In this document: piece after piece, positions 2,475-63,299 of the stretch
Layout: each line of letters begins with the position of its first letter
Numbering within the stretch: the stretch's first letter is position 1
NCBI GenBank assembly: GCA_016872115.1
Contig: VHBC01000002.1
Span: 62,001-126,000, forward strand
Length of the DNA stretch: 64,000 nt
Origin: Sphingomonadales bacterium
GTDB taxonomy: Bacteria > Bacteroidota > Bacteroidia > Flavobacteriales_D > Crocinitomicaceae
Reading direction: 5' to 3'
The notes under the pieces: model-generated
What the model was told of the DNA's origin: nothing
Seen by the model: the letters and a program-made list of their open reading frames with translations, nothing else
Database searches by the model: none
Program-made: the position numbers and the translations under genes

Positions 2475-2615
2475 ATGAAAGGCCTCAAAAAACAGCACTT
2501 ACCAACAAAAATTTGCCTCACATGTGAACGCCCCTTTACTTGGCGCAAGAAATGGGAAAAGAATTGGGAAGAGGTCAAGTACTGCTCAGACCGTTGCCGG
2601 TCTCAGCGCAATTGA
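2475..2615 (+). CDS. DUF2256 family small zinc-ribbon-like protein
   Basis: A 46-residue protein starting at ATG 2475 ([17 protein letters not shown]...) and ending at TGA 2613-2615. Seen: the DUF2256 pattern of two cysteine pairs, C14-x2-C17 and C37-x3-C41, bracketing the aromatic-basic stretch [14 protein letters not shown], which suggests one bound zinc ion. Length and composition match the family closely. It is divergent from the DUF2805 gene and overlaps the 3' end of the convergent beta-mannosidase gene by 13 bp. Function is unknown; a nucleic-acid or protein-binding zinc ribbon is only a guess. Confidence 0.82.
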
Positions 2616-5104
2616 TAGGAGATTTCACCGATGTCGGGGAGCTGTTCTTTGTAAGTAAAAAGAATACGGTGTTTGCCGGGTAAATACGTTTGGAAATTTT
2701 GCTCGAATTGCAAATTTTGATTTTCAGCATATAACCAAAGATCTACCAATGGTTCTGCGTTTTCAATAAGTAATATACCCGTTTTCGTATTTGGATCAGC
2801 TCCTTCAATTTGAAAATTAATTTTTGGCGTAGGCGCTTTTCTTTTCTCGACGAAAGTAAATAATCGCACGTAATGCTCATCTAAAGTAACTTTGACAAAA
2901 CCTTGTTTTTCCGCAGAAAGCGCACTTAAAATCTGCACGGTATTGCATTGAAGTGGATAGGTTCGTCGTTGGGTGTCTTGGAGACGCCCATTGAGGTCGT
3001 AATACTCCATTTGAACGGTCACCAAGGTATCTTCAGGTAGATCACTCGTGAGGACAATAAAAGCTTGGTCTTCCTTTATTTGCTCCAAGACGGCAATTGG
3101 GCGGTAATCTTCACAAACAGCATAGTGCAGTGCTTTCCAGTTATTTTGGTCATCAAGGCTCGACCACGTTGGTGCAGGCCAGCAATCATTGAGCTGCCAG
3201 TATATGGTACCCATACAACGAGGTGCATCGGCGCGGTGCCCTGCAATGGCCATACTAACTGCCTTGCGCTGCGTAAGTTGCGAGAAATAAATAAATTGCT
3301 CAAAATCTTTATCCTTACCAAAGTAGTACTTTGCATGTTTTTCAATCATGCCATTGCCCACATAAGATTTCTGATGGTTTTTCATGACCGCAGATTGCAA
3401 ACGCTGCTCGCTTAACGCTGCAAATCGATTGATCGTACTCGGCTCAGGGAAACTCTGAAAACCGTACTCTGCATTGAAACGCCCAATTTTATTGGCAAAA
3501 TCGGACAACGGGTCTTTGCCGTGCCAAACCCCCCAATAATGCATGGTACCATGGTTGAAGAAGTCGTCTTGACCCCAGTTGCTCAGTGGAGAGGTGTGAA
3601 CATAAGGAATGCTATTCGATGTAGATAACGTAACTTGCGTAGGAAGTAATTCTCGAAATAATTTTTGATAAGCCACATCAATTTCTTGCTGCTGCTTTTC
3701 AAATAAGCGATATTGTACTTGAAAACCCCAGTTGTGCCAAGCGACATCAACCTCATTGTTTCCATTAAAATAAACCAAAGACGGATGCGCTGCCAAGCGC
3801 GGTATTTGTTGTTGGACTTCGTGGGTCACATTTTCTAAAAAGGCCGCATCCCCGGGATACATTGCACAAGCGAACATGAAATCGTGCCAAACCATTATTC
3901 CAGCGTGGTCGCAAGCAGCCATGAATGCCTCTGGTGCGTACATGCCCCCGCCCCAAATGCGCGCCATATTAAAATGGGCAGCTTGCATCTGTGGTACCAA
4001 ATGAACATATGCGCTGTCTAATGCTGAGCCGGCAAACATGCCTGGCGGAATAATGTTGGCTCCTTTAGCAAATACATTACGTCCATTGATTTGAAACGCA
4101 AAAGAAGTTCCCCACTCGTCTTTTTCTTGGAGCAGTTCTACTTTTCGGATGCCAAAGGAATAAGGATACGCCAACAGTAAATCGCCCTTGACACCATAAA
4201 AACGCAAGGTATCTTGATACAAATGCTGCGCGCCTTGCCCTGCTGGCCACCAAAGTTGGGCATTTTGTATGTTCAAGTTTTGGCCAAGTATTGAAAGCTT
4301 AAATGCCAAACCTTGGACCTCCTGAGAAGTAGGTTTTGTTTCTGAGTTTGATTCAATTGCTATGTTATCAAAAATTTGACTTTTTACAGAAATACCTTGT
4401 TCTTTGGTTGACATCCTGCCCTTCAGTTGAATCTGTGCCGACCCATCAGCGTTCAGGGAGATGGTATTCACTACCACATGCGTAACTTGAATATTTGGAA
4501 GAATATATATCGAAATTGGATATGCAAAACCAATTGTGTTGAGGCGGGGTGCCCAGTCCCAGCCAAATTGGTATTGTGGCTTGCGCGTCAAAGAAGCTAC
4601 TTTGACTGCCCCGACATCATTAGGAGCCGGGTAGGTAAATGATTTATAACGATCGGATTTTGAATGGTAATTAATTGGAGAAGCTATCTTTATATCTATG
4701 GAATTATAACCGCATACTAAATCTTTGACTTCTAAAAGAAATTGCTGATGTACAAAGAAATTATCTGTACTTGCCAGCAGTTTCCCATTCAAAAAGATTT
4801 GGGCATAGGTATCGAGGTTTGGAATGTCTAGCGCTAGGGTTGTGGCATTAAAAAAGGCTTCGTTTAAGAAAAACTTGGAACGAAAATGCCATTCGTGGTC
4901 TTCTATCCATTGGTATTTGGCTTCATTCTGACCGTAAAATGGATCTGGTAATTCTCCACTATGCCAAAGCCATTCTTGAACAGTTCCGTTTTGGCCAAAT
5001 GGCATCCAAACTTTTTTGATAGGATGGTACAATTCCCAAGAAAGCGTTTCTTGAGCGTGCGCAAAATTCATAACAAACAAGAAAATAAATAGAAAACTAC
5101 GCAT
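2603..5104 (-). CDS. Exported beta-mannosidase, glycoside hydrolase family 2
   Basis: A GH2 retaining beta-mannosidase that removes beta-linked mannose, for example from the Man-beta-1,4-GlcNAc core of N-glycans or from mannan oligosaccharides. Seen: a signal peptide ([17 protein letters not shown]), an N-terminal jelly-roll domain (WHFRSKF...[11 protein letters not shown]), a TIM barrel with [14 protein letters not shown] and the acid/base region [13 protein letters not shown], the nucleophile region [13 protein letters not shown], and C-terminal beta-sandwich domains; 833 residues is normal. The start is ATG 5104, forming a TGATG overlap with the glycosylasparaginase stop, so the two are translationally coupled; the frame extends upstream only through a TTG and a GTG. 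The pair suggests joint attack on Asn-linked glycans. Confidence 0.92.
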
Positions 5105-6093
5105 CACCAATTGCGGTCAAATTTGGCATCGACAAGGGCCTCGCCTTCGTTATTGCGCAAAGCAAAATTAAAACCTGCATAAATGGAATAGGCACCATAG
5201 TTTCCATTTTTGTCGAGGGCTATAAACCCACACTGCAAGCCAGAGAGGTCTTTGTGTTTGCGAATGATGCGCATACAGGCTTCTTTACAAGCATCGAATG
5301 GTGTGTAGCCTTGACGCATGAGTTCTACCACGGTGTGGCTTCCGGCCACACGAACAATGGCCTCGCCGAGGCCCGTAGCGGTGGCTGCCCCTACTTCATC
5401 GTCGACAAACAAACCAGCCCCGATAATTGGCGAATCACCGATACGCCCGTGCATTTTGTAGGCCCAGCCACTTGTGGTGCAAGCACCCGCAAGCTGACCT
5501 TGCGCATCCATGGCAATCATGCCGATGGTATCGTGGTTTTCGTGGTTGATTTCGGGTTTCTTGAATAAGTCTTTGTTTTCTTTGCGCCATTTTTCGTAGT
5601 CTTTCTTGACTTCGTCTATGGGCATTTTTGCGGTTGCAAAACCCTGCGCAAGGGCAAATTGGCGCGCGCCGTCGCCAACAAGCATGACGTGCTGGGTGCG
5701 TTCCATAATGGCGCGCGCCACACTGATCGGATGCGCGATGCCTTCCAAAAATGCTACCGAGCCACAACGCGCATCACCGCTCATGATACACGCATCTAAG
5801 GTTACGTGGCCATCGCGGTCTGGGCGGCCACCTACACCAACGCTGCGGTTTGTTAGGTCTGCCTCAGTGACCATGACACCTTTTTCGACGGCATCTAAAG
5901 CCGAGCCGCCTTTCTGCAATACTGCCCAAGCGCCTTCGTTGGCAGCCAAGCCATGGTTCCAGGTAGAAAGCACGATGGGACCCTTTGCAGAACCTTGTGC
6001 ACCCTGAGCCAAAATTTGGCTGGCTTTCGCTGTTTCTACCAAGCTCAGTGCACCAACTACAGCACCAAAACGTATAAATTGTCTTCTTTTCAT
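5104..6093 (-). CDS. Glycosylasparaginase / N4-(beta-N-acetylglucosaminyl)-L-asparaginase, Tat-exported
   Basis: A 329-residue Ntn-hydrolase of the asparaginase-2 family. These precursors cleave themselves before a conserved Thr, which becomes the nucleophile hydrolysing the GlcNAc-Asn bond. Seen: a twin-arginine-like signal (MKRRQFIRFGAVVGALSL, with a hydrophobic stretch to about residue 24), TWNHGLAANEGAWAVL, the DAVEKG segment, VGVGGRPDRDG, and the cleavage site HDTIGMIAMD near residue 190. The HDTIG context favours glycosylasparaginase over isoaspartyl peptidase. It is followed by the overlapping beta-mannosidase gene and preceded, 3 bp away, by mltG. A tatA gene lies in the same window. 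Confidence 0.9.
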   Translation of the reverse strand: MKRRQFIRFGAVVGALSLVETAKASQILAQGAQGSAKGPIVLSTWNHGLAANEGAWAVLQKGGSALDAVEKGVMVTEADLTNRSVGVGGRPDRDGHVTLDACIMSGDARCGSVAFLEGIAHPISVARAIMERTQHVMLVGDGARQFALAQGFATAKMPIDEVKKDYEKWRKENKDLFKKPEINHENHDTIGMIAMDAQGQLAGACTTSGWAYKMHGRIGDSPIIGAGLFVDDEVGAATATGLGEAIVRVAGSHTVVELMRQGYTPFDACKEACMRIIRKHKDLSGLQCGFIALDKNGNYGAYSIYAGFNFALRNNEGEALVDAKFDRNW

Positions 6094-6096
6094 AAG

Positions 6097-7176
6097 TTAA
6101 CGATTGCGAAGTTCTGCCGCCAACCAATTTTGAAAGGCCTTGGCATTTTGTGCATGTTCGGCACCAGATGCAGTGAAATTATGCGTGCCAGAGTAATCTG
6201 GCTTGGCACACATAAAAATGTAATTATTGTTGTTGGGATTCAGCACTGCCTCGACAACTCCAACCGGAGGTAAATAGATTGGTCCTGGTGGCAAACCTTT
6301 GATTTTATAGGTGTTGTAAGGGCAATTGATGTCGCGGTGCACGGCAAGTAAACGCTGTACACCTTTGAGTTGGTCTCCCCAACAAAATTTGAAAGTAGGG
6401 TCGGATTGTAATTTGATGCCTTGCTTGATGCGGTTGAGGTACAAGCCCGCAATGATCGGCCATTCCTCAGAACGTTTGGATTGCTCAGAATAAACAATGC
6501 TCGCTAAAGTCACCGCCTCGCTTGGTGTTTTCAGACCCACTTTTTGAAGACTGGCTTTGCGTGCGGGTGTCCAAAAATTCTTAAATTCTTGGGCCATGCG
6601 ATCTACAAAACCTGCCGGAGTTTGATCCCAGTAGAGCTCATAGGTATTCGGAATAAATAAGGCCGGAAGTTGTTCTAAGGTAAAACCCAAACGCGTCAGT
6701 GTTTGGCCATCTTGAAGGTGTGCAATAAAGCCTGTGCTGTCTAAGTCAAGTTGCTTTTGCAATTTGCCTGCCAAATCTTGAAGGGTTCGACAGTTTTCAA
6801 AACTCAGCTTAACAGTTCGCTCTGCGTTGCCATTGCCATTGCTATTGAGCTTGAAACCATTCCAAATATGACGATAAGCGGTTCCTGGAGCAATGATATA
6901 TTTTCCGGGTGCAATATTTTTGACGTTCATTTCCTTTTCGTTACCAACTAATTCGAATTGTTCCTTAGATGAAATAATTCCGCTGTCAAATAACAATTGA
7001 GATATGTATTTGATGTCCAAATCGCTTTGGCGATTTGAAAGGAAAATAGTCACTTCAGCGTTGTTTCTCGACTTTTGAAAAGCTGCGTAAACGTATTTTA
7101 GTTTAGGTAAAACCAAAAGTGTTACCGCAATAAAAATAATACCCGTAATTAAAATTAAATTTTGCTTTTTAGACAT
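6097..7176 (-). CDS. mltG: Endolytic peptidoglycan transglycosylase MltG
   Basis: A 359-residue YceG/MltG-family lytic transglycosylase that cuts nascent glycan strands at the inner membrane and sets strand length. Seen: one N-terminal membrane helix (about residues 7-25), a LysM-like region (GKYIIAPGTAY), and the C-terminal catalytic domain with ASIVYSEQ (Glu231 aligns with the catalytic Glu of the family), LYLNRIKQGIKLQSDPT, NTYKIKGLPPGPI and a Bacteroidota-type ending FMCAKPDYSGTHNFT. It overlaps the upstream GNAT gene by 22 bp, so it belongs to the dapF operon, which makes sense for cell-wall genes. Confidence 0.95.
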   Translation of the reverse strand: MSKKQNLILITGIIFIAVTLLVLPKLKYVYAAFQKSRNNAEVTIFLSNRQSDLDIKYISQLLFDSGIISSKEQFELVGNEKEMNVKNIAPGKYIIAPGTAYRHIWNGFKLNSNGNGNAERTVKLSFENCRTLQDLAGKLQKQLDLDSTGFIAHLQDGQTLTRLGFTLEQLPALFIPNTYELYWDQTPAGFVDRMAQEFKNFWTPARKASLQKVGLKTPSEAVTLASIVYSEQSKRSEEWPIIAGLYLNRIKQGIKLQSDPTFKFCWGDQLKGVQRLLAVHRDINCPYNTYKIKGLPPGPIYLPPVGVVEAVLNPNNNNYIFMCAKPDYSGTHNFTASGAEHAQNAKAFQNWLAAELRNR

Positions 7177-7685
7177 AATTGATAAGTGAGTTCGTCGAAA
7201 TATTCATTTTTAAAGCGCAACCAATTTTTGCGCGTTCCCGCATGCACAAATCCTGCTTTTTCAAAAAGGGCAATACTCGCATGGTTGTCGTGGTGAATTT
7301 GGCAATATAAATTGCGTAGCTCAAGGACTTCTGTGCAATAGGTGCCAAACAATTGAAGGGCATCAAAGGCAAATCCTTGGTCTTTGTCGGCATCTGAGGC
7401 AATTAAAATACCCACCGCAGCATAGCCATGTTTGAAATTGAGATCGTAGAGATCAATGACCCCAACCGGACGTTTTTCAGTGCTTGTTTCGATCACCAAA
7501 CGCATTTGACCCGATTTACGGATGTCGGATTGTTGTTCGATAAGCTGATGGATATCAAATAAAGAAAACGGCACTTCTGTATTTGATACCTTCCAGTTGG
7601 CAGGGTTGTTTTCCCACATGAAAATGGTGCTCGCATCGTCTTTTTCGACAGCGCGCAAAGAAACCAAACTACCCTCTAAGCTCAT
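7155..7685 (-). CDS. GNAT-family N-acetyltransferase (RimJ/RimL/SpeG type)
   Basis: A 176-residue acetyltransferase. Seen: an N-terminal LRAVEKDDASTIFMWEN motif typical of RimJ/SpeG-type enzymes, the central strand PVGVIDLYDLN, the GYAAVGILI segment at the acetyl-CoA site, and the C-terminal NHASIALFEKAGFVHAGTRK that closes the GNAT fold. The substrate cannot be deduced; a polyamine or a protein N-terminus are both possible. It overlaps dapF by 17 bp at its start and mltG by 22 bp at its end, so it is in the middle of the operon. Confidence 0.85.
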   Translation of the reverse strand: MSLEGSLVSLRAVEKDDASTIFMWENNPANWKVSNTEVPFSLFDIHQLIEQQSDIRKSGQMRLVIETSTEKRPVGVIDLYDLNFKHGYAAVGILIASDADKDQGFAFDALQLFGTYCTEVLELRNLYCQIHHDNHASIALFEKAGFVHAGTRKNWLRFKNEYFDELTYQLCLKSKI

Positions 7686-8454
7686 ATTTTCCGTTATAAA
7701 CGTACTCCGCTGGACCTGTTAAGTAAACGGCGGTAAATGATTGATCTGTTTGCATTTGCCACTCCACCATTAGTGGACCACCTTTGGTCAGTATATTGAC
7801 TTTTCCAATTGGTATTTGTCGAAGTTGCCCATAAACCAAAGCAGCAGCAGTAACGCCAGTGCCGCAAGAAAGCGTTTCGTCTTCTACGCCACGTTCATAG
7901 GTGGCTACACGGATCTTATCTTCCAGCACCTCAACCAAATTGACATTGATGCCTTCTTTTTGATAGCCAGCGCTATAGCGAACGGCCTTGCCAACCTCAA
8001 CGACGTGTTCGGAGCTATGATTGGCATCAATCAGAATATAATGTGGAGAACCCGTTTGAACAACATATGCGTTTTCCAATTTTTCGATAGGAGCCACCTC
8101 AGACATCTTGAGTCTGACTTCATGTTCGCACAGCCAAGCCTCATGCATGCCATCTATAGCCTGAAAATGGGTATGATGACTATTTAGCAATCCTAGTTTC
8201 CCGGCAAATGCCACCGCACAACGTGCGCCATTTCCGCAAAACGATTGTGAACCGTCTGCATTGTAATAAATCATTTCGAAATCGAGTTCTGAGTGTCTTT
8301 GAAGTAGAATCAGGCCATCAGCACCTATGCCAAATTTGCGCTGACACAATTCTTGAACTTGAGGAATTGACAATTTGTCATGCTGCCCGTTTGTGTTATC
8401 GAGCATAATGAAGTCGTTGCCAGTGCCTTGATATTTATCGAAATGTAGCGTCAT
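7669..8454 (-). CDS. dapF: Diaminopimelate epimerase
   Basis: Converts LL- to meso-diaminopimelate for lysine and peptidoglycan synthesis. Seen: the N-terminal FDKYQGTGNDFIMLDN motif, the two active-site cysteine motifs NADGSQSFCGNGARC and LSCGTGVTA, and YERGVEDETLSCG, all as in the PLP-independent epimerase family; 261 residues is normal. The frame is open to a TTG at 8478, but a perfect -7 element (8465-8472) overlaps that region and the conserved protein begins at MTLHFDKY, so ATG 8454 is used. It is the first gene of a five-gene operon and divergent from htrA. Confidence 0.96.
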   Translation of the reverse strand: MTLHFDKYQGTGNDFIMLDNTNGQHDKLSIPQVQELCQRKFGIGADGLILLQRHSELDFEMIYYNADGSQSFCGNGARCAVAFAGKLGLLNSHHTHFQAIDGMHEAWLCEHEVRLKMSEVAPIEKLENAYVVQTGSPHYILIDANHSSEHVVEVGKAVRYSAGYQKEGINVNLVEVLEDKIRVATYERGVEDETLSCGTGVTAAALVYGQLRQIPIGKVNILTKGGPLMVEWQMQTDQSFTAVYLTGPAEYVYNGKYELRG

Positions 8455-8464
8455 GGTGGTCGAA

Positions 8465-8472
8465 CAAAAATA
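8465..8472 (-). promoter_or_regulatory. -7 element (TATTTTTG) of the dapF operon
   Basis: A perfect TAnnTTTG, 10 nt before ATG 8454, giving a predicted leader of only about 6 nt. A TTG at 8488-8490 on the minus strand could be a -33 element, but with a short 15-bp spacer. Confidence 0.55.
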
Positions 8473-8544
8473 GTTCAATATTCGTTACAAAATCTTAACA
8501 AAATTTAACATTTTTCGGGCAATTTTTGGAACGCTCTTTGCGTT

Positions 8545-12599: not shown

Positions 12600-13279
12600 T
12601 GACAAAAAAAATCACCATAGCAATTGACGGTTATGCGGCTTGCGGTAAAAGCACCCTAGCAAAAGCGCTCGCCCAAGCACTCAATTATACTTTTATTGAC
12701 TCCGGCGCGATGTATCGCGCCGTTGCTTTTTATTGCCTTGAGAAGCAGTTTGTTGACAACCAAGGTGTTATTCAAAAAAAACAACTAGAGAAATTCCTCA
12801 GCGAGATCGAGATAGAAATGACACCCGATCAAAGAATCTTTTTGAATAAACAGGATATTACAGACGCCATTCGCACGCCGCGGGTGGCCAACGTAGTATC
12901 ACAGGTGGCCACTATTAAGAGCGTTCGAAGTAAATTAGTAGAACTCCAACATGCAATGGGCAAAAACGGAGGAATCGTAATGGATGGCCGAGATATCGGA
13001 ACCGTAGTATTCCCTGATGCCGAACTTAAAATTTTTGTAACTGCAAGTACCGAAGTACGAACGGCAAGAAGACTTGCAGAATTAAATGCAACAGGAGCGC
13101 ATGTTGCTGCAAACGAAGTCACAAAAAATTTACTCGAACGAGACTATCTTGATAGTACCAGATTAGAGAGTCCGCTCAAGCAAGCTGCAAATGCAATTGT
13201 ACTCGACACCACTTATCTTAGTAGAGAAGAGCAATTGCAATGGGCACTTGAGCGCGTAAGGCTACTCATAACCAATTAA
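12599..13279 (+). CDS. cmk: Cytidylate kinase
   Basis: A 226-residue CMP/dCMP kinase of pyrimidine nucleotide salvage and DNA precursor supply. Seen: the P-loop GYAACGKSTLAKALA near residue 10, FIDSGAMYRAV, the NMP-binding region (TPRVANVVSQVATIKSVR), MDGRDIGTVVFPDA, and the LID segment RRLAEL...ERDYLDSTR. The ATG overlaps the GAPDH stop (TAATG). Its 3' end overlaps the convergent DUF2891 gene by 18 bp. Confidence 0.95.
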   Translation: MTKKITIAIDGYAACGKSTLAKALAQALNYTFIDSGAMYRAVAFYCLEKQFVDNQGVIQKKQLEKFLSEIEIEMTPDQRIFLNKQDITDAIRTPRVANVVSQVATIKSVRSKLVELQHAMGKNGGIVMDGRDIGTVVFPDAELKIFVTASTEVRTARRLAELNATGAHVAANEVTKNLLERDYLDSTRLESPLKQAANAIVLDTTYLSREEQLQWALERVRLLITN

Positions 13280-14377
13280 GGCAAATACAGAGAAGGAAGA
13301 CAACCAGTGGTCAATGTCGTAATTGCCCTTTCCAATGCTTTCTTGAGCGTAATCCCACATATCATTCATGGCTTTTACCCAAGCTGCTTTGGTTGCCGCA
13401 TCAAGACTTTCAGCTGGCAAGGTTTTGAGCATGCCATTCAAACACCAAATACGGTTGAGGTGGTAGCCATCCCAATGTGATTCATAGCCGTCATGTTTGT
13501 CGGTTTTCTTGATTTGTAAATCTTTTACGGCTGTTTGCGTTTCGAATAATCCAGGCGCAAAACCTTTAACCCACTTGAGGTATTCTTCTGGAGTATAAAC
13601 CTTGCGCATAAGATCTGTAACCAGTAAAGAAGCAGACATGAAATCGTATTCAAAAGGTTCGGCTCTCAGTGGCGCTTTGGTCATTTTACCGTAGTAGCGT
13701 TTGCTTGCTTTCAATGCTACTTTTAAGAGGTCTTGGTCTCCGAAAGTACGGGCGTAGTCTATGGCAAACGACAAATTGAGCGATGGTGCATCGTGAGAAC
13801 CAGACAATTCAACGGCTTTCATGTCTTTCCATATGACTTGGGCGGCAGCGGCACACAAACGGTGCAATGGACCCAAATTTTCTAACCAACGTGCTGCATC
13901 TGTGTCGTCCCAGCGGGCTAATTCATCGGCAACTTTGAGCAACCAACCTTGACCATATGGAAATTCGAAGATGTAGCGCTCTTTGTTGGTTTCAAAATAT
14001 TTGTATTCTTGACGAATGTTTTCTTCACTAAAGCTTTCCTCTAATTTGGCACGAATTGCTGCTGCTTCTGGAAGATCGGGATAAGTTTTAAGGATTTTAA
14101 TAAGCGCCCAGTGGTTATGCACAGCACTGTGCCAGTCGTAACAGCCATAAAATGCGGGCCAAATATCCGTTGGTGTTTGGGTATCGCCGGGCTGTCGCAA
14201 TGCCTGGTAGTAATAGTGAGGAGTCGGTTTAGCCGTACAATCCAATGAAAGTTTCGCAAAATAAGAGGCACCTTGTTCAGACAAGGTATAACGGCCATCT
14301 GATGAGGTAGTAACAAGTTGTGCAAAAAGCACCTGAACGCTAATAAGCGCCATAAAAAGGAATGAAAATTTAAGCAT
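13262..14377 (-). CDS. Exported DUF2891 family protein
   Basis: A 371-residue exported protein. Seen: a signal peptide (MLKFSFLFMALISVQVLFAQ) and the DUF2891 signature PAFYGCYDWHSAVHNHWALIK, followed by FEFPYGQGWLLKVADEL and SGSHDAPSLNLSFAIDYAR. The helical repeats and clustered Trp/His/Asp residues resemble an (alpha/alpha)6-barrel, which hints at a glycan-acting enzyme, but no activity is established for the family. The frame is open to 14419, inside the upstream membrane-protein gene; ATG 14377, 13 bp after that gene's stop, gives a proper signal peptide and is used. It probably shares a transcript with the membrane protein. Confidence 0.85.
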   Translation of the reverse strand: MLKFSFLFMALISVQVLFAQLVTTSSDGRYTLSEQGASYFAKLSLDCTAKPTPHYYYQALRQPGDTQTPTDIWPAFYGCYDWHSAVHNHWALIKILKTYPDLPEAAAIRAKLEESFSEENIRQEYKYFETNKERYIFEFPYGQGWLLKVADELARWDDTDAARWLENLGPLHRLCAAAAQVIWKDMKAVELSGSHDAPSLNLSFAIDYARTFGDQDLLKVALKASKRYYGKMTKAPLRAEPFEYDFMSASLLVTDLMRKVYTPEEYLKWVKGFAPGLFETQTAVKDLQIKKTDKHDGYESHWDGYHLNRIWCLNGMLKTLPAESLDAATKAAWVKAMNDMWDYAQESIGKGNYDIDHWLSSFSVFALIGYE

Positions 14378-14390
14378 GGGTAAATTAAAA

Positions 14391-15758
14391 TTAAGATTGT
14401 ACCGGTTTTTTGAATCCATTCTTTAAAATCGATAAAGATTCTGTGCCGATGCCCACAATGGAGACAATATTAAGTGGGAATTCGAGGAGTACATGAGAAA
14501 AACTCAAGAAAAATAGCAAACTAAGACCCAAGGAGTAGTCATAGGTATAAAAAACAGAGGAAGCTATCCAGACCAACATGACTAAAATAAAACGCACCTT
14601 TGGTACTTTATGCCAACGGATGATTTCAGTTTTACTAAACCAATTAAGGTAATGATACAAGTATGCGAATGCAATAAAACGCATGAGCATAATGCCAACC
14701 TCTGAAAAATAGATGAGAGCATCTGTCTCTTTTTTCGTGCGCGACTTCATGACTTTTCGCGGCAGCGCTTCAAAACGGTATTCGTTGATATTTTTTATGT
14801 AGCGACTCGAGGTATCAAAGAAATACAAAAGATGGTCGTATTGAAATTGAGGTGCTAAATTGGCCGTATTGATTGGCATAGGCTTGACAACAAATGGACG
14901 CTTTGCGATTTGTGACAGAGAGTCTACGTGCGCATCAAAGGCAATGGTGTCTATGATTCCCTGTCGTAAAAAGTAATTTTTATTGCCTTCTTTGGTAATG
15001 ATATCTAGGTATTCTTTGTTGGTGAGTTTTTGCTCTTCAATGAGCTCAAAATGATCCAAAATGAGGTAATTGGTGTTGTAAAAGCCGTCACCTTTGGCGT
15101 AATAGGCATCTTTTCCAAATTTGGACAAAAAAGTATTTTTAGTATCGACAGGCAAACTAAACACTAATAGAAGAGGTACAGCAACAAAACCAACCATTTG
15201 CCAAAGTCCAGACTTACTTCGGGACTTCAGCGCACCGTAAAGCATAAATAAACCCGTAAAGACATAGACGTGAATAAGGGTTGGAATAAGCGCAGTTAGA
15301 GCAAAAACGGTAGTGCTTTCGGCATTGGCCTCAGCTCTGTCTGGACTTAGCCAACCGGCTACAAAAACATAAAGTAAAAAAATGGATAACAATTTGATCC
15401 ATAAACTTTTAACCAATGCAAATAGAATAGAGGCAAATAAGGCAAAAACCAATAACTTGTCAAAAAGATTCATCTCGACAAAATAGTCGTATACATCTTT
15501 GCTGAAGCCGAAGTCTTTGGCAAATGCGGCATAGGAAAGTAAAACACCGACTATCAGTAGTACGAGGAAGTCCCATTTACCTTTGGCAAAATATTGACGG
15601 TCGTGGAGCCAGCTGATTTCGGTGAGGTAATGCAAAGGACCTAAATAAGCATAGGCCAACAAGAAAGTCTCAAAAGGAAAATAATAGGCCAATACCGCTG
15701 TTATCAGCATGAGGCCAACATTGAGGTAATTGATGCGATCTTCTTTTAGCAGGTTCAT
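14391..15758 (-). CDS. Polytopic membrane protein of unknown function
   Basis: A 455-residue integral membrane protein that I do not recognise. Seen: about nine to ten hydrophobic segments, a hydrophilic stretch around residues 210-330 that is probably periplasmic, and two histidine motifs near membrane segments at opposite ends of the protein: GPLHYLTEISWLHDRQYF (near residue 40) and SFSHVLLEFPLNIV (near residue 425). Such paired His motifs in helices are seen in metal-dependent membrane enzymes such as carotenoid oxygenases of the Brp/Blh type, but overall similarity to those is not apparent. It precedes the DUF2891 gene on the same strand. Confidence 0.7.
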   Translation of the reverse strand: MNLLKEDRINYLNVGLMLITAVLAYYFPFETFLLAYAYLGPLHYLTEISWLHDRQYFAKGKWDFLVLLIVGVLLSYAAFAKDFGFSKDVYDYFVEMNLFDKLLVFALFASILFALVKSLWIKLLSIFLLYVFVAGWLSPDRAEANAESTTVFALTALIPTLIHVYVFTGLFMLYGALKSRSKSGLWQMVGFVAVPLLLVFSLPVDTKNTFLSKFGKDAYYAKGDGFYNTNYLILDHFELIEEQKLTNKEYLDIITKEGNKNYFLRQGIIDTIAFDAHVDSLSQIAKRPFVVKPMPINTANLAPQFQYDHLLYFFDTSSRYIKNINEYRFEALPRKVMKSRTKKETDALIYFSEVGIMLMRFIAFAYLYHYLNWFSKTEIIRWHKVPKVRFILVMLVWIASSVFYTYDYSLGLSLLFFLSFSHVLLEFPLNIVSIVGIGTESLSILKNGFKKPVQS

Positions 15759-61109: not shown

Positions 61110-63299
61110 TTAATTGCCGTATTCAGACATAAATTTAATACGCACCAAGCGCAATTCCTCTTCAGAATATAGCCCATCAAACTCATGGTAAGCCGAGATG
61201 AGGTCTTCGGAGTCAGCACCCAAAAAGTAGTCTATGATTTCCTCTTGGTTATCGGGGTCTAGGACCTCAGCCAAATAATAATCGATGTTGAGTTTGGTGC
61301 CTGAATTGACGACGGTTTCCAGTTCTTCGAGTAAGGCGTCGAAAGATTTCCCTTGAGATTTAGCGATGTCTTCAAGAGGCAATTTGCGGTCAATATTTTG
61401 AATGAGTTGTACTTTGGCTCCTGACTTATTGATCAAGGATTTCACGACGAAATCTTGGGGACGCTCAATTTGATTGGCAAGCACATGACTAGAAATCAGC
61501 TCCAAAAAGGGCAAGCCATAGCGCTGTGCTTTTCCAGCCCCGACACCTTGTATGGAGGTGAGCTCAGCGATTTCGATCGGGTATTGCAAACACATTTCTC
61601 GGAGAGAAGGCTCTTGAAAAACCACAAAAGGTGGCACACCTGCTTGCTTTGCAACGCGCTTGCGCAATTCAAGAAGTTGCGTATACAAAGCTTCGTCAAA
61701 TACAGCGCCGCGCTGATTGAGCACGATATCGTCGTCGTCGGTATTGGAGAAGTCGTGTTGCTTATAGAGTTGAAACGACCCTGGTGCAGTTAAGAATGCA
61801 TGTCCTTTTGGAGTCAGTTTAAGTGTGCCAAAAGTTTCGACATCCTTGTAGAGATAACCGGCAACGACAGATTGGCGTATAACCGCATTCCAAAAGTGTT
61901 CGTCGTGGTCTTTGCCAACCGCAAAAAGCGGTAGCTGGTCGTGTTTGTAGGCTTTGATATCGGCGTTGAGGTGCCCGGCTAAAAAAGCACAATAGTGTTT
62001 AGATTTTTGGGTTTGATCAAGCGCCACAACAGCTTGAAGCAAGTAACCCAGGTATTGGCCTCCTTCCATGCGTTCTTGCGGATGTTTGCAGTTATCGCAT
62101 TTCTCTTGGCAATTGCTTTGATTGAAATCTTCGCCAAAGTAATGCAAAATGAACTTGCGCCTGCAAACAGAGGTTTCGGCGTACGAAACGATTTCATGTA
62201 AGAGTTGTTTACCTATTTCTTGCTCCGTAAGTGCTTTTACCTGTAAAAATTTTTCGAGTTTTTCGATGTCTTTATAGCTGTAAAAAGCGATGCATTCTCC
62301 TACCCCACCGTCTCGGCCTGCACGACCTGTTTCTTGGTAATAACTTTCAATTGATTTTGGGATGTCGTGGTGAATGACATAACGCACATCTGGTTTGTCT
62401 ATACCCATTCCAAAAGCAATAGTAGCAACGATCACCTCAACTTCCTCCATCAAAAATGCATCTTGATGTTTGGCTCTTGAGTTGGCATCTAGGCCCGCAT
62501 GATAAGGCAGCGCATTGATGCCGTTGACTTGCAATAGCTCGGCGATTTCCTCTACTTTTTTGCGGCTCAGGCAATAAATAATTCCGCTCTGCCCTTCGTG
62601 TTGTTTGATGTAACGAATAATTTGTTTTTCAACTTCTCTTTTTGGACGAATTTCATAATAAAGGTTGTCGCGGTTAAATGAAGACTTGAAAACATCAGCA
62701 TCCAGCATATTGAGGTTTTTCTGGATATCGTATTGAACTTTTGGAGTTGCGGTTGCGGTTAAGGCAATGATGGGGACATTAGAAATCTTTTCGAATATTT
62801 CACGAAGACGGCGGTACTCTGGTCTGAAGTCATGACCCCATTCAGAAATACAATGGGCTTCGTCAATCGCAAAAAAGGAAATCGGAACGGCCGCTAAGAA
62901 ATCGATATTTTCTCGTTTGGTAAGTGATTCTGGCGCTACATATAGCATTTTGGTTTGGCCACTCAAAACGTCATCCTTTACCTGGGCAATTTCTGCTTTA
63001 CTCAGAGAAGAATTCAAGAAGTGTGCAACTTGCCCTGTTTGTGATAAACCACGCACGGCATCTACTTGATTCTTCATGAGGGCAATGAGCGGAGAAACAA
63101 CGATGGATGTTCCAGGTAAAATGAGCGAAGGCAGTTGGTAACAAAGTGATTTTCCGCCACCCGTAGGCATCAATACAAAGGTATTGCGACCAGCAATCAC
63201 ATTTTCTATGATTTGTTGTTGAGCGCCTTTGAAATGATCGTAACCAAAATAGGTCTTGAGGGCGTCCTTGAGGCGATATGGGGAGTTGATAAGCTGCAT
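61110..63299 (-). CDS. recQ: ATP-dependent DNA helicase RecQ
   Basis: A 729-residue superfamily 2 3'-5' helicase for recombination and repair of stalled forks. Seen: Walker A MPTGGGKSLCYQLP (Lys50), DEAHCISEWGHDFRP (Walker B 146-149), ETGRAGRDG (motif VI), the RQC zinc cysteines CRRKF...NCQEKCDNC near residue 370-400, the winged helix, and an HRDC domain (LRKRVAKQAGVPPFVVF). The final 100 residues extend beyond the core. Confidence 0.95.
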   Translation of the reverse strand: MQLINSPYRLKDALKTYFGYDHFKGAQQQIIENVIAGRNTFVLMPTGGGKSLCYQLPSLILPGTSIVVSPLIALMKNQVDAVRGLSQTGQVAHFLNSSLSKAEIAQVKDDVLSGQTKMLYVAPESLTKRENIDFLAAVPISFFAIDEAHCISEWGHDFRPEYRRLREIFEKISNVPIIALTATATPKVQYDIQKNLNMLDADVFKSSFNRDNLYYEIRPKREVEKQIIRYIKQHEGQSGIIYCLSRKKVEEIAELLQVNGINALPYHAGLDANSRAKHQDAFLMEEVEVIVATIAFGMGIDKPDVRYVIHHDIPKSIESYYQETGRAGRDGGVGECIAFYSYKDIEKLEKFLQVKALTEQEIGKQLLHEIVSYAETSVCRRKFILHYFGEDFNQSNCQEKCDNCKHPQERMEGGQYLGYLLQAVVALDQTQKSKHYCAFLAGHLNADIKAYKHDQLPLFAVGKDHDEHFWNAVIRQSVVAGYLYKDVETFGTLKLTPKGHAFLTAPGSFQLYKQHDFSNTDDDDIVLNQRGAVFDEALYTQLLELRKRVAKQAGVPPFVVFQEPSLREMCLQYPIEIAELTSIQGVGAGKAQRYGLPFLELISSHVLANQIERPQDFVVKSLINKSGAKVQLIQNIDRKLPLEDIAKSQGKSFDALLEELETVVNSGTKLNIDYYLAEVLDPDNQEEIIDYFLGADSEDLISAYHEFDGLYSEEELRLVRIKFMSEYGN

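Follow-up and report, generated by a model that had tools for sequence, protein, structure and literature searches.

A glycosylasparaginase gene (AGA) and a GH2 beta-mannosidase gene, joined by a TGATG stop-start overlap, lie on the minus strand of a 64,000-nucleotide stretch of DNA (positions 62,001 to 126,000 of contig VHBC01000002.1, GenBank assembly GCA_016872115.1; hereafter the window) from a bacterium deposited under Sphingomonadales and placed in the Crocinitomicaceae of the Bacteroidota by its GTDB lineage. In our judgement the two enzymes probably carry out two steps, both specific to the glycan core, in an exported exo-pathway that breaks down N-glycoproteins in a lysosome-like manner. 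The probable use of N-glycans rests on the genes that keep the pair company in relatives, namely those of GH20, GH92 and GH29 enzymes. The pair belongs to a larger gene set, of a kind already known, and is not a new minimal system. The first-pass annotation of this DNA had described a minimal N-glycan core degradation pair; the N-glycan role stands as the likeliest one, whereas self-sufficiency does not, with a GH20 enzyme, two GH92 enzymes and a CutC protein encoded elsewhere in the same genome.

Identity of the two enzymes

The product of the AGA gene (329 residues) is, by score and site residues, classified as a glycosylasparaginase (EC 3.5.1.26), because solved Elizabethkingia/Flavobacterium glycosylasparaginases match it at about 1e-113 and 383 bits, compared with at most 134 bits for isoaspartyl peptidases, and because all eight expected site residues are in place. 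NCBIfam returned only a far beta-aspartyl-peptidase match below the cut-off, and a search of the source genome turned up no Asparaginase_2 member besides AGA. Docking in a 2026 study (PMC13204146) assigned Trp11, Thr152, Gly172, Arg180, Asp183, Gly204, Gly206 and Gln254 to the site of the enzyme from Elizabethkingia/Flavobacterium meningosepticum (EmAGA); their equivalents in the window protein are W45, T189, G209, R217, D220, G241, G243 and Q287, all of them invariant in an alignment of 12 proteins that are 55-92% identical to window AGA. Asp188-Thr189 align with Asp151/Thr152 of EmAGA and are likewise invariant (12/12). Enzymes of this type need a single amino acid left on the sugar, and their product, 1-amino-N-acetylglucosamine (1-amino-GlcNAc), breaks down to GlcNAc and ammonium (PMC6960285).

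The best solved relative of the GH2 protein is the Bacteroides thetaiotaomicron beta-mannosidase (4.6e-138, residues 24-816), followed by other beta-mannosidases. Two glutamates, in GNNE and E-YGFQSF, which we take to be the catalytic residues, both align with those of solved beta-mannosidases. Only the N-terminal GH2 domains pass in Pfam, and NCBIfam gave no name for the protein; on the matches to solved structures it is assigned as a beta-mannosidase, with Man-beta-1,4-GlcNAc as the putative substrate. GH2, GH5_18 and GH130 are the families listed in a review as cutting this linkage (PMC10154615).

Export is predicted for both enzymes from signal peptides judged by eye: AGA carries a twin-arginine motif, RRQFIRF, followed by a hydrophobic stretch, with R3 and R4 invariant (12/12), and the GH2 protein a Sec-type signal. 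The families and the export of both proteins given by the first-pass annotation agree with the Pfam and solved-structure matches and with these signals. As regards base composition, AGA has a G+C content of 52.1%, GH2 42.4%, mltG 41.7% and the window 44.6%.

Conservation of the gene pair

Named genomes were scanned for AGA, and the best 80 of 335 loci (53-93% identity; a non-random set with many close relatives) have mltG directly before AGA in 44 cases and AGA elsewhere in 36; placement behind dapF-mltG is therefore a lineage trait. A GH2 match follows AGA within 700 bases on the same strand in 37 of the 44 mltG-AGA loci, which bears out the conservation that the first-pass annotation had proposed to look for in relatives. 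Six loci lack such a match despite having room for it (L062, L066, L067, L069, L071 and L072), and in the remaining one (L045) the contig stops 338 bases past AGA. Among 36 genomes of the same genus, some of which overlap with the named records of the 80-locus scan, AGA is matched in 35 and GH2 in 32, and the two are adjacent by coordinates in 23; they fall on separate contigs in G003, G005, G034 and some others. It is the close packing that is conserved, not the exact TGATG: among the junctions listed, L061 has TGATG, L044 and L064 overlap by one base in TAATG, and most others show a short gap. A chance pairing of AGA and GH2 was set aside in view of the conservation in public loci.

The enzyme set within the same genome

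The source assembly comprises 2.22 Mb in 65 contigs, with the window on contig C2. Other contigs encode one GH20 hexosaminidase, two GH92 alpha-mannosidases and one CutC (locus L114, 9721-10485, minus strand), all four confirmed by Pfam. All five types of the GH20-AGA-CutC-GH2-GH92 set described below are therefore present, spread over contigs C1, C8, C9 and C22 apart from the linked AGA-GH2 pair, so that the set is complete in content and not clustered.

The first-pass annotation had advised a search for an endo-beta-N-acetylglucosaminidase. Neither GH18 nor GH85 endoglycosidases gave a match in the source genome, and an endoglycosidase partner for the pair was rejected on these negative searches. 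Their absence fits a lysosome-like exo-degradation of glyco-asparagines, in which an endoglycosidase is not needed. Cleavage of the core chitobiose by a GH20 enzyme has a precedent (PMC9522356), and exo-enzymes alone could therefore finish the breakdown of N-glycans. A candidate for a secreted glycan-releasing enzyme is possibly encoded on contig C8 (L129, 3443-6901, minus strand): a secreted protein of 1152 residues that combines a laminin-G-like domain, a domain resembling PNGase F in its C-terminal part, and a type IX sorting tail. Its match to PNGase F is distant (5e-11); the Glu of C-x-E-W is kept, and the N-terminal part aligns below noise.

Clusters in other Bacteroidota

The company of AGA becomes apparent in the 36 loci in which it does not follow mltG. 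Within 5 kb of AGA these loci hold CutC in 18 cases, GH20 in 13, GH92 in 11 and GH2 in 10, and 23 of them have at least one of the four. The order GH20-AGA-CutC-GH2-GH92 occurs in L090, L101 and L106 (in L106 with a small open reading frame after AGA); in L088 and L093 about 1.8-1.9 kb of other sequence precedes GH92, and in L096 fucosidase genes are inserted between CutC and GH2. A second order, AGA-GH20-CutC-GH2, is found in L073, L081 and L100. Relatives of an MFS transporter lie nearby in L073, L079, L081, L089, L090, L093, L096 and L101. Pfam was run on the GH20, CutC and GH2 proteins of L090, on one L096 fucosidase and on the MFS and ROK proteins of L124; other genes in these loci are named by tblastn similarity to those or to window proteins. 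We infer that the cluster represents the older state and the scattered genes a derived one. A literature search that reached few subscription journals found no paper on this combination of flavobacterial enzymes.

Two types of GH2 protein occur in these loci, a shorter one (about 660 residues) after CutC in L121, L122, L123, L073, L081 and L100, and a longer one (about 820-870 residues) beside AGA or in clusters like that of L090.

CutC as a companion of the set

CutC, annotated as a copper homeostasis protein, lies inside the glycan-degradation clusters of L088, L090, L093, L096, L101, L106, L073, L081 and L100. The company that CutC keeps is the strongest new lead of this analysis. Among 23 relatives at the order level, the 13 genomes that carry CutC are also the ones that carry GH2 and GH20, and the other 10 lack all three (Fisher 8.7e-07). 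This test and those below ignore shared ancestry and use no control family, which counts against a functional reading of CutC, and set-bearing genomes tend to be somewhat larger. GH92 differs from CutC in two of these genomes and AGA (above 280 bits) in three; CutC is missing from G041, which carries AGA and GH92, and a true AGA from G039, which carries CutC.

A wider sample of 109 Bacteroidota genomes, each at least 95% complete, was searched with cut-offs of E <=1e-45 for AGA, chosen to drop isoaspartyl-type members, and E <=1e-40 for GH2, and yielded CutC in 32 genomes, AGA in 55 and GH2 in 21. AGA is present in all 32 genomes with CutC versus 23 of the 77 without it (7.0e-13), or, once nine weak or partial AGA matches are dropped, in 29/32 versus 17/77 (1.9e-11); GH2 is present in 15/32 versus 6/77 (9.6e-06). 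CutC lies within 1 kb of AGA on the same strand in 12 of the 32 CutC genomes, and within 1 kb of GH2 in five. The link does not appear to hold everywhere: CutC is matched in the control genomes of E. coli, Caulobacter and Lactococcus, and there GH20 and GH92 have no match in E. coli and Asparaginase_2 none in Lactococcus.

A predicted model of CutC (mean predicted local distance difference test score, pLDDT, of 97) matches CutC structures with Z-scores of 29-37. Among the matches listed, the nearest folds outside the family are MJ1099 of methanofuran/methanopterin biosynthesis (Z 21.0), hexulose-6-phosphate synthase (19.9), an aldolase (18.2), pyridoxine phosphate synthase (18.0) and phosphoribosylanthranilate isomerase (17.8), with many barrel enzymes close behind. 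The fold hints at a phosphosugar substrate; it hints and does not prove, since so many barrel enzymes score closely, and this tempers a reading of CutC as a sugar enzyme, as does the one invariant Cys in an alignment of 18 CutC sequences, which makes metal binding conceivable. The 21 invariant positions of that alignment also include Glu, Arg, His and Asp. By eye no signal peptide was seen in CutC.

Position between AGA or GH20 and GH2, co-occurrence, fold and invariant residues together suggest a role that we put forward tentatively, a little short of an even call: Bacteroidota CutC could be a cytosolic enzyme of N-glycan catabolism, acting on a sugar or sugar phosphate derived from GlcNAc-Asn, chitobiose or Man-GlcNAc. 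According to PMC6538781, the copper sensitivity of E. coli cutC mutants arose entirely because the small RNA MicL had been lost. In a literature search outside which most subscription journals lay, no link of CutC to glycan breakdown was found in the titles and abstract openings among the matches listed, nor in text passages of two of the listed papers; among the papers listed for the phrase 'copper homeostasis protein CutC', several treat it as a copper gene.

A model of the pathway and its alternatives

If the enzymes act as their families suggest, proteases would bring a glycoprotein down to a glyco-asparagine, and GH92 alpha-mannosidases would cut its glycan back towards Man-beta-1,4-GlcNAc-GlcNAc-Asn. 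The beta-mannose would be taken off by the GH2 enzyme and the chitobiose split by GH20; AGA, exported by the twin-arginine route and self-cleaved at Asp188/Thr189, would then hydrolyse GlcNAc-Asn to aspartate and 1-amino-GlcNAc, which would decay to GlcNAc and ammonia. The end products would be mannose, GlcNAc, aspartate and ammonia; the sugars would be imported, and one of them may be a substrate of cytosolic CutC. In this Crocinitomicaceae-like lineage the set would have become scattered, leaving AGA-GH2 as a linked remnant behind dapF-GNAT-mltG.

Several observations weigh against this pathway, and some of them feed an alternative in which the two enzymes have no common substrate and overlap as a matter of operon packing: AGA would serve mainly to scavenge L-asparagine or isoaspartyl peptides, and mannan oligosaccharides of algal or plant origin would be digested by the GH2 enzyme. 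Mannan is also a substrate of GH2 beta-mannosidases. Across the 109 genomes the association of AGA with GH2 is weak, with GH2 in 15 of 55 genomes with AGA versus 6 of 54 without (p 0.05); AGA therefore has wider uses, often without GH2, as in 40 of the 55. None of GH20, CutC, GH2 and GH92 lies within 5 kb of AGA in 13 of the 36 loci away from mltG, several of which have short flanks. As the only Asparaginase_2 member found, AGA might also cover isoaspartyl repair, and EmAGA hydrolyses free Asn as well as Asn-GlcNAc (PMC13204146), so that family membership leaves the physiological substrate unsettled. Nevertheless, the predicted export of AGA is ill-suited to cytosolic protein repair, in sequence it stands much nearer to glycosylasparaginases, with isoaspartyl peptidases well behind, and mannan does not explain the recurring company of GH20, GH92 and CutC; we regard separate roles in scavenging and mannan digestion as rather unlikely. 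The setting behind dapF and mltG could alternatively be taken to mean that the pair turns over the cell's own envelope, either peptidoglycan or the cell's own glycoproteins, and the order dapF, GNAT, mltG, AGA, GH2 is indeed conserved, with mltG directly before AGA in more than half of the 80 loci. Gene order alone, however, speaks for likely co-transcription and not for a common substrate, and we know of no peptidoglycan bond that matches either enzyme. With AGA away from mltG in the other 36 loci, 23 of which have the glycan-degradation or CutC neighbours counted above, a role in the organism's own envelope appears very unlikely, and the exported breakdown of N-glycoproteins is preferred.

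Genomic setting

The pair closes a run of five minus-strand genes, dapF-GNAT-mltG-AGA-GH2 (Table 1), in which the upstream junctions are a 3-base gap or overlaps; given this tight same-strand spacing the genes are likely transcribed together. Reading of the window sequence and its open reading frames upholds the first-pass annotation both in the TGATG overlap, where the two frames have one base in common, and in the dapF/mltG setting, with mltG, GNAT and dapF directly upstream. The likeliest start of the GH2 gene is the ATG at 5104-5102; an alternative frame of 835 residues from a TTG at 5110 is two residues longer. The earlier remark that no SusC/SusD pair is visible also withstands a domain search: neither was found in the 19 scanned open reading frames of the window, nearest neighbours included (the rest of the genome was not searched for them), and the pair is thus not part of a Sus-type polysaccharide utilisation locus, with SusC/SusD beside the enzymes, in the scanned frames. 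An exported DUF2891 protein (Pfam 2.6e-85) is encoded near the pair, at 13262-14419 of the window.

Table 1. Features of the gene run in window coordinates, with the basis of each assignment
Feature	Position	Strand	Basis
GH2 beta-mannosidase, Sec-type signal peptide	2603..5104	minus	Pfam GH2 domains, 4.9e-38 and 4.5e-08
TGATG stop-start overlap	5102..5106	minus	AGA stop TGA (5106-5104) and GH2 ATG; sequence read directly
Glycosylasparaginase (AGA), N-terminal nucleophile (Ntn) hydrolase, N-terminal twin-arginine signal	5104..6093	minus	Pfam Asparaginase_2, 1.8e-67
Asp188-Thr189 codons, expected AGA self-cleavage site and nucleophile	5527..5532	minus	Alignment to EmAGA
Twin-arginine signal region MKRRQFIRFGAVVGALSLVETAKA	6022..6093	minus	Read by eye
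mltG (endolytic transglycosylase), upstream neighbour	6097..7176	minus	YceG, 2.7e-61; TIGR00247 above cut-off
GNAT acetyltransferase, upstream neighbour	7155..7685	minus	Acetyltransf_3, 2.4e-18
dapF, first gene of the run	7669..8478	minus	DAP_epimerase, 2.4e-36; TIGR00652 above cut-off

Relation to known systems and outlook

Window AGA resembles EmAGA (PDB 1p4k, 3ljq) in a near full-length match, the self-cleavage site, the eight residues and export, and differs in adjoining a beta-mannosidase behind mltG. The GH2 protein matches the B. thetaiotaomicron beta-mannosidase (PDB 2je8, 2vjx) over residues 24-816, but is not near SusC/SusD in the scanned stretch. The alf-2 cluster of Lacticaseibacillus casei, which serves fucosyl-GlcNAc-Asn (PMC6960285), likewise places a glycosylasparaginase in a set for N-glycan core remnants and has a ROK-type kinase; there, however, AsnA2 is cytoplasmic and acts behind a permease and a fucosidase, and neither a mannosidase nor GH20 or CutC features in the description of the cluster. 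The N-glycan loci of Bacteroides (PMC10154615, PMC9522356) share the GH92, GH20 and GH2 steps and include clusters of carbohydrate-active enzymes without Sus genes, whereas release there is by GH18, GH85 or PNGase, and the genes of the window genome are scattered; AGA goes unmentioned in both papers, neither text containing 'asparaginase'. By sequence and fold the cluster CutC is an ordinary member of its family (PDB 3iwp, human; 1twd, Shigella), but it is set apart by sitting in glycan-degradation clusters and by tracking AGA in Bacteroidota.

These findings suggest that Bacteroidota with small genomes can dismantle N-glycoproteins to single sugars by means of scattered exo-enzymes, without GH18 or GH85, along a lysosome-like route. 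The link of CutC to this set offers a concrete starting point for tests on a conserved protein, also present in humans, since the copper phenotype once tied to it in E. coli has been ascribed to a small RNA.

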